Assembly (NCBI RefSeq): GCF_000875775.1 | Contig: NZ_CP010868.1 | Coordinates: forward strand, 124,001-188,000 | Length of the DNA: 64,000 bases | From: Nitrosopumilus piranensis | Lineage (GTDB): Archaea; Thermoproteota; Nitrososphaeria; Nitrososphaerales; Nitrosopumilaceae | Reading direction: 5' to 3' | Shown here: piece after piece, positions 26,499 to 63,366 of the stretch | Layout: every line of letters starts with the position of its first letter | How positions within the stretch are numbered: position 1 is the stretch's first letter | Made by a program: the position numbers and the translations under genes | Notes under the pieces: generated by a model | Told to the model about the DNA's origin: nothing | The model's database searches: none | Seen by the model: only the letters and a program-made list of their open reading frames with translations

Positions 26499-26572
26499 GT
26501 ATTCGAAAAAAATCTAAAACGACTAATTAACCTTTGGACATTATTTTTAAATTAATAACGGCATAGAAGAAT

Positions 26573-26695
26573 ATGGCTGAAGACATACGATGTCCTAAAT
26601 GTGATAACAAGATGGTGGACATGCAAGCCTGCCATATGTTTTGTCCAAATTGTGGATCACATCTAGATTGTTCAGATAAAGGAAATTATTGGTAG
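26573..26695 (+). CDS. Zinc-ribbon miniprotein (40 aa)
   Basis: ATG at 26573. The sequence has RCPKC at residues 6-10, CHMFCPNC at 20-27 and a further Cys at 33, so one zinc ribbon fits with two spare Cys. Acidic N-terminus, no hydrophobic segment. Function unknown; a nucleic-acid or metal-sensing role is possible. It converges with another zinc-ribbon gene one base away on the opposite strand. Confidence 0.7.
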   Translation: MAEDIRCPKCDNKMVDMQACHMFCPNCGSHLDCSDKGNYW

Positions 26696-26696
26696 A

Positions 26697-26870
26697 TTAC
26701 AGTCCAGGCCTATCAGGAATATATTCAGAGGACATGTTAATTGCATGATCTTTCATGATTTCTAGATACGTGTCATAATCTGCTTCAAAATTACAATGAG
26801 GGCATCTTACATTTGTTACATTATCATCCAAAACTGCAACTTTTTCGCATTCAGGACATCTTGCATCCAT
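26697..26870 (-). CDS. Zinc-ribbon miniprotein (57 aa)
   Basis: ATG at 26870 begins MDARCPECEK; a second pair RCPHC follows 17 residues later, making a compact CxxC-CxxC zinc ribbon, then an acidic helix and the tail YIPDRPGL. Such stand-alone ribbons occur near translation genes in this phylum, but no role is established. It ends one base from the convergent 40-aa zinc protein. Confidence 0.7.
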   Translation of the reverse strand: MDARCPECEKVAVLDDNVTNVRCPHCNFEADYDTYLEIMKDHAINMSSEYIPDRPGL

Positions 26871-26889
26871 ATTCTAATTTGTTGATTAA

Positions 26890-26899
26890 GATATTTAAT
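26890..26899 (+). promoter_or_regulatory. Putative TATA box for tRNA-Gly
   Basis: gatatttaat centred about 28 bases before the tRNA 5' end at 26923, as expected for an archaeal promoter that starts transcription near the first base of the tRNA. Confidence 0.45.
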
Positions 26900-26922
26900 C
26901 ATAGTTAATGAATATGGCTTAA

Positions 26923-26996
26923 GCGGAGTTAGTTTAGTCTGGTATGACGTCAGCTTCCCAAGCTGAAGGCCGCGGGTTCAAATCCCGCACTCCGCA
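26923..26996 (+). tRNA. tRNA-Gly (anticodon CCC)
   Basis: Acceptor GCGGAGT/ACTCCGC, discriminator A at 26996, anticodon stem TCAGC/GCTGA around loop TTCCCAA (CCC), T arm GCGGG-TTCAAAT-CCCGC. No intron. Its last base abuts the stop codon of the convergent C39/TPR gene at 26997. Confidence 0.95.
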
Positions 26997-59530: not shown

Positions 59531-59623
59531 GGGCTTGTGGCGCAGAGTCAATTTGACGCGAAACATGGATAGCGTGGTAGCCTCCTAAGTTACAGGTCGA
59601 GGGATCGAAGCCCTCCAAGCCCG
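59531..59623 (+). tRNA. tRNA-Arg (anticodon CCT) with an 18-nt insertion in the D loop
   Basis: Acceptor GGGCTTG/CAAGCCC, discriminator G, anticodon stem GTAGC/GTTAC with loop CTCCTAA (CCT), T arm GAGGG-ATCGAAG-CCCTC. The D region is too long: stem GCGC/GCGT encloses 28 bases rather than about ten. Removing 59546-59563 gives the D loop AGCATGGATA with A20, an Arg identity base. I interpret the extra 18 nt as a noncanonical intron (bulge AGA between CGC/GCG and GTC/GAC pairs). Confidence 0.85.
59546..59563 (+). other. Probable noncanonical tRNA intron (D loop of tRNA-Arg)
   Basis: 18 nt between GCGCAG and CATGGATA. Around it CGC-AGA-GTC pairs with GAC-GCG, leaving a 3-nt bulge on the 5' side like part of a relaxed bulge-helix-bulge, and cutting AG/A gives the expected mature D loop. 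The 3' bulge is not clear, so exact ends are inferred. Confidence 0.5.
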
Positions 59624-59661: not shown

Positions 59662-60201
59662 ATGGCTGAAGATATGAGAGTTGTAGTTATTTCTGGTAGT
59701 CCAAGAAAAAATGCAAACACACAGATTTTAATGAAATATGTTTATGAATATACTAAATTAAAAAATCAAGATACAAAATTCATTAATCTATCTGAAGGCC
59801 AGATTGAGTGTTACAAAGGACCAGAAGAAGATTATAACGATACAACAAAAAATGCGGCAAAAGACATCACAAATGCGGATGTTTGGCTAATTGGATCACC
59901 AATTTACAATTCATTCTTTAGTTCAGCACTAAAAAATTTGTTTGAATACATCAATTACAAAGAGACTGGTGGAAAAGTTGCAGGTATGGCAATTTTGGCT
60001 GCAGGAAATATTGGTTTTATTGATGTTCAGACACTAATTACCCAGTTATTATCATATTTTAGAGTAATTACAAATCCAAAGGCTGTTTTTTTAACTACAG
60101 AATCTATTGATAAAAATAATATTTTGAATGAAGATGCCAAAAATAGACTAGAGGGAATGGTGGATGAAACTTTGGAAATGGCAACAAAATTACAAAAATA
60201 A
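59662..60201 (+). CDS. NAD(P)H-dependent FMN reductase-like flavodoxin-fold protein
   Basis: 179 aa. The FMN phosphate loop SGSPRKNANTQILMKYV and the LIGSPIYNSFFSSALKNLFEYI region are those of the NADPH-dependent FMN reductase family. No metal-binding Cys cluster is present, so it is not an iron-sulfur flavoprotein. ATG start. It follows tRNA-Arg; bluB, 200 bases upstream, also uses reduced flavin, an inference of possible cooperation only. Confidence 0.88.
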   Translation: MAEDMRVVVISGSPRKNANTQILMKYVYEYTKLKNQDTKFINLSEGQIECYKGPEEDYNDTTKNAAKDITNADVWLIGSPIYNSFFSSALKNLFEYINYKETGGKVAGMAILAAGNIGFIDVQTLITQLLSYFRVITNPKAVFLTTESIDKNNILNEDAKNRLEGMVDETLEMATKLQK

Positions 60202-60478
60202 TCCAAACCTATTTTGTATAACACACTTATCATTTAATGGCAGATAGTTTGAATTGTTTTCAAAAAGTTTTCTAAATCATCACATAGAATTGAAAAAATA
60301 TCATTTGAATAATTTTGAAATTATTTCTTTAGTTGAAAATTTTCTTTAAATCTAATAACTAAAGTTTTTTTCAAATTAGTTAGAAAGATAGAAAATCGCA
60401 TATTAGAAATTTTTGAGATATTTTATTCATGTTAAACATGTAAAAGTCAAATACTAACAAGACATACAAAAGAGGTAA
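60202..60478. other. 277-base AT-rich intergenic region (longest non-coding gap)
   Basis: No ORF or tRNA is recognised between the flavodoxin-like gene and the Cys-rich miniprotein. It holds an AT-rich run and, near its end, a perfect 13-bp palindrome (60428-60440), so it probably carries the promoter of the miniprotein. Confidence 0.5.
60428..60440. promoter_or_regulatory. Perfect 13-bp palindrome CATGTTAAACATG upstream of the Cys-rich gene
   Basis: CATGTT-A-AACATG, 38 bases before the TTG start of the Cys-rich miniprotein. A dyad this size at promoter distance is a plausible binding site for a dimeric regulator. It could also arise by chance in AT-rich DNA. Confidence 0.4.
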
Positions 60479-60598
60479 TTGAATGACAAAAAAGATCCAA
60501 CAGAATTGTGTTCATGTAAATGTCATTTTGGAGGAGCAGTTAGCTGCCCTGATTGCAAGAGTAATCATGGCGTAGTTAGTTGTCACTGTGAGGATTAG
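60479..60598 (+). CDS. Cys-rich miniprotein (39 aa), possibly metal-binding
   Basis: TTG at 60479 directly follows an in-frame stop and gives a 39-aa frame with seven Cys at 11, 13, 15, 23, 26, 35 and 37 and His at 16, 30 and 36 (CSCKCH, CPDC, CHC). The clustering suggests metallothionein-like or zinc/copper binding. A GAGGT element sits only two bases upstream of the TTG and six bases before an alternative ATG (60483) in another, Cys-poor frame. The Cys pattern makes this frame the better candidate. Confidence 0.5.
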   Translation: MNDKKDPTELCSCKCHFGGAVSCPDCKSNHGVVSCHCED

Positions 60599-60604
60599 TT
60601 TAGT

Positions 60605-61114
60605 TTATTTTTTCTTAGATGCTAACATTTTCAGGTTTGCTAATTCAGTTTTTAGTGATTCAATTTGTACAAGTGTTTGAAGATTAGAAATTTCTTGATT
60701 TAGTCTTTCAATTTCACTGTCTTTTATTTTTACAGTTTCTTTTAGACTGTTTAATTCAGAAGACAATTCATTTTGAACTTGTTTAATTTCTGACAGACTA
60801 ACTTGGGTACCAGTAGTTGTAGTTTGAATTGTTTGTGTGTTACTCAAGCTTTTTTTTTCGCTATGATGTGCATGTTTATGCATGTAATCTGCACTTTTTT
60901 GCGATATCCAACAAGTAAATGCTAAGAACCAGGTAATTGGGACTGCCATAATGAATATGAAATTCAATAAAGGTGCAAAGTCTACAAAGTATGGCCAAAG
61001 TCCAGTTAACACGGCTGCAAAAACAGCAGTTACAACTGTAGCTAAATGGTTTCCCAAGTATCCCATAATTGATTTGAAAAATTCATTGTTTATAATAGTA
61101 ATGGTAAAATTCAC
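60605..61114 (-). CDS. Two-helix membrane protein with long coiled coil
   Basis: 169 aa. Two membrane helices (about 24-44 and 49-67: LATVVTAVFAAVLTGLWPYFV, LNFIFIMAVPITWFLAFTCWI), a His-rich loop (MHKHAHHS) at about 78-84, then a Ser/Thr/Gln linker and a C-terminal coiled coil (LSSELNSLKETVKIKD...LKMLASKKK). GTG start at 61114; an ATG (MGYLGNH) at 61066 is in frame. Six bases after the Cys-rich gene, convergent. No recognised family. Confidence 0.6.
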   Translation of the reverse strand: MNFTITIINNEFFKSIMGYLGNHLATVVTAVFAAVLTGLWPYFVDFAPLLNFIFIMAVPITWFLAFTCWISQKSADYMHKHAHHSEKKSLSNTQTIQTTTTGTQVSLSEIKQVQNELSSELNSLKETVKIKDSEIERLNQEISNLQTLVQIESLKTELANLKMLASKKK

Positions 61115-61150
61115 AAAATAATAATAATTAAAAAGAAAAAAGAGCCGATT

Positions 61151-61381
61151 TTATTCGTCTTCTTCGGAAGCAGTTGTTGCCTTAGGCATGTCAGATTGCA
61201 GAATTTGTATTTTTTGTAATAATTCGGTTCTCAGATCTCGTGCAACTCTTCTGACAGTTGGTCTTGGAACACCAAGCTCATCAACTACTTTTGTATAGAT
61301 GTCTTGCTTGTCAGTTACCCCTTTGTCAAGATAAGAATTAATTGCTTCTTTAATGATCGTACTCTGGTTTGTGCGATTCAA
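61151..61381 (-). CDS. Small HTH-like DNA-binding protein
   Basis: 76 aa. Helix pattern STIIKEAINSYLDKGVTDKQDIYTKVVDELGVPRPTVRRVARDLRTELLQKI: a predicted HTH with recognition helix PRPTVRRVARDLR, then a coil and acidic tail. Resembles small archaeal chromatin- or replication-associated HTH proteins. TTG start. No operon partner. No precise family assigned. Confidence 0.65.
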   Translation of the reverse strand: MNRTNQSTIIKEAINSYLDKGVTDKQDIYTKVVDELGVPRPTVRRVARDLRTELLQKIQILQSDMPKATTASEEDE

Positions 61382-61560
61382 CGAATTCTAAATTTTAATT
61401 GTTCTATATAAGACTATAACTTTTGAAATTTCCAAAATCTAATTTATAACAAATTCATATTTTCTATTACAAAAAATCAAAGTATTCAAGAGGTTTAAAC
61501 ATCAACGAAAAACGTACTGATAGTTATAGATTTTTCAAGATAGTTATTCAAACCATAAGA

Positions 61561-61599
61561 ATTATCATAAGTGTTTTCGCAAAAGACTCTTATGATAAT
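61561..61599. promoter_or_regulatory. Long inverted repeat just upstream of the cyclophilin gene
   Basis: ATTATCATAAG (61561-61571) and CTTATGATAAT (61589-61599) are perfect 11-bp inverted arms with a 17-nt centre that can add five more pairs after one mismatch. The right arm ends 17 bases before the ATG at 61617. Either an operator for a dimeric regulator, a 5' UTR hairpin or, if transcribed from the left, a transcript end structure. Confidence 0.55.
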
Positions 61600-61616
61600 A
61601 GTACAGAGTGTTTTTT

Positions 61617-62093: not shown

Positions 62094-62987
62094 ATGAAAA
62101 CACAAATTATTTCAATTTTTGTTGTAATGTCATTAATTTTTGTGATACCATTAGCTAATGCACAAATTTCTCTTGGAGAAAAAGCTGAACAAGAATCTGT
62201 AGAAGTGTTCATAAGTTCAAATGGCAATGTTGAGGTAAAACACGTAGTAAAACCATCAAATTTACCTGTAGATCTTGAATTAATTAATGGTACAATATCA
62301 AATCTTTCAGTAACAAATGAGCATGGTGAGAATTTAGAGTTTTCAACTAATGATAAAAACGTAGTATTAATTCAACCAGCAATAGAAAATTCAATTGTTA
62401 AATACAATATTTCTGATGTACTTTATCTAAAGGAAAGAGTTTGGACATGGGATTTCAGATATCTTGAAACAACTTCATTCATTTTTCCTGAGAAAGTAGA
62501 TTTTGTATTCAGTAATGAACGACCTGTTTTTCTTGGAGATAAGAAAGGAATAGCATGTCATGGGTGTCAAATGCTTTTGGAGTATTCAACAGATGAATTC
62601 AAAAGTTTTGAAAAAATAAAATGGGAGGATAAGGAATTCATAGTTGCAATAATAAGTAATTCGAAGGTGAATGAATTTGTTTTTGACCAACCAACAAAAA
62701 GCATTACTTATGATGTATCTGAAAAAAATAGATTTGTAAATACAATTATTCCATTAGAATTATTGTGGGGACCGTATTCAGTTTTCCTAGATGATGAAAA
62801 AACATTTTTTCATGAATATATCAATAATGGGACTCATGTTTGGGTTAGCGTAATTCCTGAAACATCAGGAGAAGTTACAATCATAGGGACTACTGTGATT
62901 CCTGAATTTCCAATAATTGCACCTCTAGCGATAGGATTTTTGATGATTCTTGTATTGCCATTTATGAAAAAATTTAATCTCCGCTAG
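62094..62987 (+). CDS. Exported protein with PEF-CTERM-type sorting tail
   Basis: 297 aa. Signal peptide (about 1-23, ending LANAQ), a beta-rich domain (about 30-265), then IPEFPIIAPLAIGFLMILVLP and the basic end MKKFNLR: PEF motif, hydrophobic helix and a basic tail, the tripartite pattern of archaeal sortase substrates. Cys pair (ACHGCQ) near 155. ATG directly after the cyclophilin stop. Surface location is likely; function unknown. Its 3' end overlaps the convergent zinc-ribbon gene by 14 bases. Confidence 0.72.
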   Translation: MKTQIISIFVVMSLIFVIPLANAQISLGEKAEQESVEVFISSNGNVEVKHVVKPSNLPVDLELINGTISNLSVTNEHGENLEFSTNDKNVVLIQPAIENSIVKYNISDVLYLKERVWTWDFRYLETTSFIFPEKVDFVFSNERPVFLGDKKGIACHGCQMLLEYSTDEFKSFEKIKWEDKEFIVAIISNSKVNEFVFDQPTKSITYDVSEKNRFVNTIIPLELLWGPYSVFLDDEKTFFHEYINNGTHVWVSVIPETSGEVTIIGTTVIPEFPIIAPLAIGFLMILVLPFMKKFNLR

Positions 62988-63129
62988 ACCCACATGAACA
63001 AAACCCATATTCATCAATCCTAACATCACAAACGGGGCATTTTTCACCATAATCTACTTCCCAGGGTTCTTTTCCAAACAATTTGAAGTGATCATCAATT
63101 TCAATTGGGATTTCCCGTTTCTTTTCCAA
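62974..63129 (-). CDS. Small zinc-binding protein (51 aa)
   Basis: TTG start at 63129. A charged N-terminus, KLFGKEPWEVDYGEK, then CPVC and CSC (residues 31-34 and 44-46), two Cys pairs spaced as a zinc ribbon. No TM helix. Overlaps the end of the PEF-CTERM gene. Function unknown. Confidence 0.55.
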   Translation of the reverse strand: MEKKREIPIEIDDHFKLFGKEPWEVDYGEKCPVCDVRIDEYGFCSCGSSGD

Positions 63130-63177: not shown

Positions 63178-63366
63178 ATGAAAATTGAATGTGGGTGTCA
63201 TTGTATCAAATGTAAAAGCACAAATCTTGAATCCAACAAGATTGGAGAAGTAGAAAAAGATGGGTATTTTGACATACATCATACATGTAATGAATGCAAT
63301 ACACATTTTGATCATCTAGATGGAGAAACTTTTTCTAATTGTCAAAAATGTAGTTTTTCTAGTTAG
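63178..63366 (+). CDS. Cys/His-rich zinc-binding protein (62 aa)
   Basis: ATG at 63178 (MKIECGCHCIKC) preferred; a longer frame begins at 63142. Nine Cys and several His: CGCHCIKC at the start, HHTCNECNTHFDHLD in the middle, NCQKC at the end, enough for two zinc sites. Divergent from the 51-aa zinc protein. Overlaps the convergent HTH gene by 8 bases. No family recognised. Confidence 0.6.
   Translation: MKIECGCHCIKCKSTNLESNKIGEVEKDGYFDIHHTCNECNTHFDHLDGETFSNCQKCSFSS

Follow-up and report, generated by a model that had tools for sequence, protein, structure and literature searches.

A conserved cysteine- and histidine-rich micro-protein family of Nitrosopumilaceae, predicted to bind zinc-type metal

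Results

Gene content and synteny of the locus

The window analysed here is a stretch of 64,000 nt (C1:124001-188000 of G000) from the genome of Nitrosopumilus piranensis, which is 1.71 Mb long and consists of a single contig. In a gap between an FMN reductase gene and a convergent coiled-coil gene, a short frame opens with TTG and would encode MNDKKDPTELCSCKCHFGGAVSCPDCKSNHGVVSCHCED, hereafter the mini-protein, in which 7 Cys and 3 His account for 26% of the 39 residues (Cys alone, 18%; Table 1). A sequence-only reading of this DNA had pointed to the same 39-aa frame, and we recover it with the same seven Cys and three His. It had also placed the frame at the end of the longest non-coding gap of the window: the gap is indeed long, but 60202-60604 ranks third among the stretches without an ORF of at least 80 aa. 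The 61115-61607 gap contains a 76-aa helix-turn-helix (HTH) gene, and the 26499-26996 gap contains a tRNA. Rfam gave no match to a known RNA element in the gap before the mini gene.

Table 1 Features at the mini-protein locus (positions within the window).
Feature	Position	Strand	Remarks
NADPH-dependent FMN reductase (PF03358)	59662..60201	+	conserved upstream neighbour; missing in some genera
Palindrome CATGTTAAACATG	60428..60440	.	judged a chance feature, outside the system
Conserved core promoter GTAAAAGTCAAATACTAACA, consensus GTAAAAGTCAAATATTAACA	60440..60459	+	TATA position ~30 nt upstream of TTG
Mini-protein gene (predicted)	60479..60598	+	TTG start, 39 codons/39 aa, TAG stop; frame, start and ligand residues conserved; pN/pS 0.19
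Overlapping ATG frame, 30 aa	60483..60575	+	rejected as coding frame
Two-TM, His-containing coiled-coil protein	60605..61114	-	conserved convergent neighbour; no Pfam family above cut-off
76-aa HTH-like protein (HTH76)	61151..61381	-	conserved neighbour (synteny)

The order nitroreductase, FMN reductase, mini gene and convergent coiled-coil protein is kept among relatives. Of 62 loci, 60 have the coiled-coil gene, 55 the FMN reductase, 54 the HTH gene, 52 a cyclophilin-type PPIase and 51 the nitroreductase, and each of these neighbours has a constant orientation with respect to the mini gene. The FMN reductase ends 0-41 nt ahead of the matched mini frame in eight loci and 400-600 nt ahead of it in many others, and it is missing from five loci that retain the mini gene (L017, L019, L020, L059, L062). 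Because of this variable spacing and these losses, we do not consider the mini gene an obligatory operon partner of the FMN reductase. No copper gene adjoined the mini gene in the loci examined.

Other small features were noted in the vicinity. A second small Cys-rich protein with no Pfam family (MKIECGCHCIKCKSTNLES..., 63178-63366, + strand) is encoded about 2.6 kb downstream; among 26 genomes, it was found in families f1, f3 and f8 (see below), but not in f2 or the non-amoA families, a distribution resembling that of the mini-protein. A 51-aa frame with CPVC and CSCG motifs (62974-63129, - strand) likewise has no Pfam family. At ~59531-59622 (+ strand) lies a probable tRNA-Arg, with anticodon CCU as read by eye and an insertion in the D-arm region, which is likely a non-canonical archaeal tRNA intron. 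This tRNA was missed by ARAGORN and scored 24.4 bits with Rfam (below the gathering score); in relatives it is conserved ahead of the FMN reductase gene.

The cysteine-rich frame is conserved across the family

Stop-free segments with at least seven Cys in 39 aa occur 12 times in the window and 348 times in the genome, and Cys-rich composition alone is weak evidence for a mini gene. We judged the frame to be real because it is conserved across the family, not because of its composition. A profile search detected homologues in 219 of the 250 family genomes, in 124 of the 131 high-quality ones and in all 22 genera, with named records from Nitrosopumilus, Nitrosarchaeum, Nitrosopelagicus, Nitrosotenuis, Nitrosotalea and Cenarchaeum. 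The gene is near-universal in the family as a single copy, and it is kept even in streamlined genomes of about 0.8-1.2 Mb. For 28 equal-length homologues, mean pN was 0.11 and mean pS 0.56 (pN/pS about 0.19), and third codon positions held 63% of the pairwise nucleotide differences among mini-gene homologues. In 44 diverse loci, the start codon (TTG in 25, ATG in 15, GTG in 4) lies exactly ten codons ahead of the first Cys, and we therefore take the TTG at 60479 as the start.

The overlapping ATG frame runs into a near-immediate stop in most relatives. The proposal of a Cys-rich gene had been staked beforehand on conservation in close relatives, and it is the Cys frame, not the ATG frame, that is conserved, with the ligands of CxCxCH...SCPxC...H invariant in the family. 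A chance open frame without a protein product would fit the abundance of Cys-rich frames in this genome, but it is at odds with the family-wide conservation, the low pN/pS, the third-position bias and the fixed start and ligands; we regard this explanation as already refuted, short of detection of the peptide, and its remaining probability as negligible. On these comparative grounds, we consider the frame to be a real gene that would be translated into a tiny protein. At fewer than 40 aa and with a TTG start, such a gene is easily missed by gene callers.

We inspected the apparent absences of the mini gene in 11 genomes. Three (G107, G221, G243) have a contig end beside the expected site, and in six others (G005, G012, G186, G144, G025, G073) the neighbouring HTH gene was also not found, as an assembly gap would give. 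One genome (G249) yielded a weak HTH match only. In the last, the complete, single-contig and amoA-positive G066 of the Cenarchaeum genus, HTH76 and the PPIase have neither the coiled-coil gene nor the mini gene beside them (L305), and no mini homologue was detected.

A core promoter, rather than the palindrome, is conserved upstream

The 13-nt palindrome that the sequence-only reading had reported is present 38 nt ahead of the TTG, and had been proposed as the site of a dimeric regulator. However, perfect 6+1+6 palindromes occur 35 times in the window and 862 times in the genome, and our base-composition estimate gives about 32 per window. CATGTTAAACATG was also absent from the other mini-gene loci and relatives examined. 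This abundance, and the lack of the palindrome in relatives, led us to reject it as an operator and leave the regulator proposal unsupported: the element that is conserved upstream reads as a core promoter.

This element contains CAAATA at -31 to -26 from the TTG. TATA-like words in this genome are most frequent at -30 to -26 from the ATG (833 genes), which indicates that leaderless promoters are common here, and the position of the mini-gene promoter would imply a leaderless mRNA starting at or next to the TTG. AAAAGTCAAATA is unique in the genome and conserved upstream of the mini gene, which made it a candidate for a special regulatory motif. Yet the promoters of HTH76 and the PPIase are as conserved or more so (best 20-column information of 34.2 and 28.1, respectively, versus 25.4 for the mini gene). 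We therefore read AAAAGTCAAATA as the core promoter, and the mini-gene promoter is not special compared with those of its neighbours.

Ligand pattern, database searches and structural models

The ligand core of the mini-protein is C11-x-C13-x-C15-H16...C23-P-x-C26...H30, followed by a C-terminal CHC. Across 42 diverse members, C-x-C-x-C-H-x3-A-x-S-C-P-x-C-x3-H is invariant, comprising seven ligand residues (C, C, C, H, C, C, H) and the non-ligand A, S and P, while G, G and K are each present in at least 90% of sequences. After this core, a short loop leads to a C-terminal CxHC, CHC or CCHC. Relatives are about 30-60 aa long, the shortest forms having about 31 residues (L065). The cysteines are no more fixed than these non-ligand residues, and a defined small fold therefore seems likelier than a loose thiolate cluster that would serve for metal sequestration.

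The window's mini-protein shows the features that define the family in Nitrosopumilaceae (f1), namely CxCxCH-x3-A-x-S-C-P-x-C...H, the fixed start place and the conserved synteny. No Pfam, NCBIfam, PHROG or PDB sequence family was matched above cut-off; the window mini-protein found nothing in Pfam at E up to 10, and the 42 members no metallothionein family at E up to 1. Two AlphaFold2 models placed a helix at the CPxCKxxH segment, with a confidence too low for judging ligand geometry (mean pLDDT 65 and 58), and a Foldseek search against the PDB gave no matches. The net charge is not basic, hence the protein shows no sign of nucleic-acid binding. The searched literature contained no description of the mini-protein, and an earlier mention elsewhere is possible. 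The best explanation is that it belongs to a new, lineage-restricted family of Cys/His micro-proteins.

Two variant architectures were observed. In one genome (G162; L050/L075), an in-frame tandem duplication of the mini gene gives an 82-codon frame with two CxCxCH...CPxC units. In another (G038; L076), a 129-aa open frame has the CSCSCACHVGAAETCAGCPSMH pattern close to its start and a helical-looking tail after it, which may represent a fusion of the mini-protein motif to a longer protein.

Distribution among ammonia-oxidising archaea

The amoA gene marks four of the families compared (f1, f2, f3 and f8), and the mini-protein core was found in f1, f3 and f8. In f3, a single genome (G038) holds a clear homologue (L069). 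In f8, plausibly Nitrososphaeraceae, 27 genomes of a 250-genome draw encode a shorter cousin, CDCxCHxKYGxKSxCxKCIxxHKxSPYY, with in-frame TTG codons near the expected start in the loci inspected. The f1 and f8 profiles, both Cys-rich and of low diversity, matched with a probability of 92.6% (E 4.6e-7, 27 columns), and all seven ligands (C, C, C, H, C, C, H) stay invariant when the two sets are aligned jointly. No synteny links the f8 loci to the window, and convergence of Cys-rich peptides may also account for the cousin. The core was not found in the non-amoA families sampled, in several f8 genera or in f2, which is amoA-positive and presumably a thermophilic lineage. Six viral matches to the DNA pattern, and its matches in genomes outside Thaumarchaeota, were rejected as chance occurrences that lack the remainder of the motif. 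The core thus appears to be restricted to mesophilic ammonia oxidisers, and to be common among them.

Discussion

Cys and His positions that are invariant over 22 genera give good support to the earlier prediction of a small metal-binding protein. The comparisons establish the frame of the gene, its start, its conservation, the position of its promoter and its synteny; from there we infer translation, metal binding, the number of sites, a preference for zinc over copper and an adaptor or regulatory role. Our leading interpretation, to which we give about even chances, is a free-standing zinc-type micro-protein that acts as a protein-interaction or regulatory module and is made from a leaderless mRNA. 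The gene's own TATA-type promoter would drive a transcript beginning at or next to the TTG, and the product would use its N-terminal CxCxCH cluster and a CPxCKxxH knuckle-plus-helix to fold around one or two metal ions of the zinc type; in Nitrosopumilaceae, a further C-terminal CxHC/CHC knuckle would also hold metal. Like the haloarchaeal one-domain zinc-finger micro-proteins, the resulting zinc-finger module may then serve some core process of mesophilic ammonia-oxidising archaea by binding a protein partner (or nucleic acid). These haloarchaeal CPXCG proteins are mostly zinc-binding and have phenotypes (PMC11241148, PMC6562870). Several of them, however, proved to be metal-free or to bind another metal (PMC11241148), which weakens a zinc-type reading here, and AlphaFold2 cannot tell whether motifs of this type hold metal (PMC11241148). 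The low pLDDT, the lack of a Foldseek match, the non-basic charge and the lack of an obligatory operon partner also count against an interaction or regulatory module.

The main rival is a metallothionein-like buffer or chaperone for copper or zinc, a minority possibility, in which the mini-protein would loosely bind several ions and protect or supply the copper-rich enzymes of ammonia oxidation and respiration. The high Cys and Cys plus His content within 39 aa, the CxCxC motif and the near restriction to amoA-bearing lineages are consistent with such a role, as is the heavy dependence of ammonia-oxidising archaea on copper (PMC7785015). This general dependence is the sole basis of the conjectural copper idea put forward in the sequence-only reading. 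Invariant A, S and P together with the nearly fixed G, G and K would be unusual for a metallothionein, though, and the buffer reading is further opposed by a promoter without a special regulatory element compared with its neighbours, by the lack of an adjoining copper gene, and by the failure to find the protein in amoA-bearing f2 and several f8 genera. Near-universal single-copy presence, streamlined genomes included, and strong purifying selection would also be expected if the mini-protein were not a free regulator but a zinc-binding subunit built constitutively into a larger complex, for instance in the transcription, translation or respiratory machinery. We consider such a subunit rather unlikely: core-machinery subunits are usually more widely distributed than this lineage-restricted protein, which is missing from the complete, amoA-bearing Cenarchaeum-genus genome and has no stable operon partner.

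The gene neighbourhood bears on another alternative, in which the mini-protein would be a redox or thiol partner of the adjacent flavin enzymes (FMN reductase and nitroreductase), its cysteines cycling or holding an Fe-type centre. The gene order is kept across genera, and the two frames nearly abut in eight loci, but other loci have the mini gene without the FMN reductase, the two are often 400-600 nt apart, and a promoter of its own serves the mini gene; a dedicated redox partner is thus improbable. We are rather doubtful, too, about a broader proposal, namely that the protein represents an undescribed class of Cys/His micro-proteins with a two- or three-metal cluster, which would mark mesophilic ammonia-oxidising archaea (in a shorter version in f8) and handle metal for, or regulate, the copper-dependent ammonia oxidation or respiratory system. 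A protein of 31-50 aa that almost all genomes of the family retain, even those below 1 Mb, and that matches no family model makes a good candidate for a core role in this guild. If it handles metal, it would bear directly on the copper and zinc economy of these organisms.

Among known systems, bacterial metallothioneins of the SmtA/BmtA type are small, Cys-rich proteins with His ligands. The mini-protein differs from them in its conserved non-ligand residues, its fixed CPxCKxxH and its fewer Cys, and no Pfam match assigns it to a metallothionein family. Brz of Halobacterium salinarum is likewise a small archaeal protein with a zinc-finger motif (PMC2253796), but it regulates the adjacent bop gene (PMC2253796), whereas the mini-protein has no known dependent neighbour or regulatory role, and a different ligand pattern. 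The haloarchaeal one-domain C(P)XCG zinc-finger micro-proteins (HVO_2753, HVO_0758 and others; PMC11241148, PMC10716476, PMC6562870) share with it an archaeal origin, a length below 70 aa (39 aa in the window, about 30-60 in relatives), a single Cys-rich domain, the CPxC knuckle and a stand-alone nature. They often bind zinc, which for the mini-protein is a prediction. They are defined by two C(P)XCG motifs, whereas the mini-protein has one CPxC, in SCPxCK, followed by K rather than G; its other clusters are CxCxCH, at the N-terminus, and CHC/CxHC, and it has invariant His ligands and no detectable sequence family match. The mini-protein may work like the haloarchaeal one-domain zinc-finger micro-proteins while lacking the pair of motifs by which they are defined.
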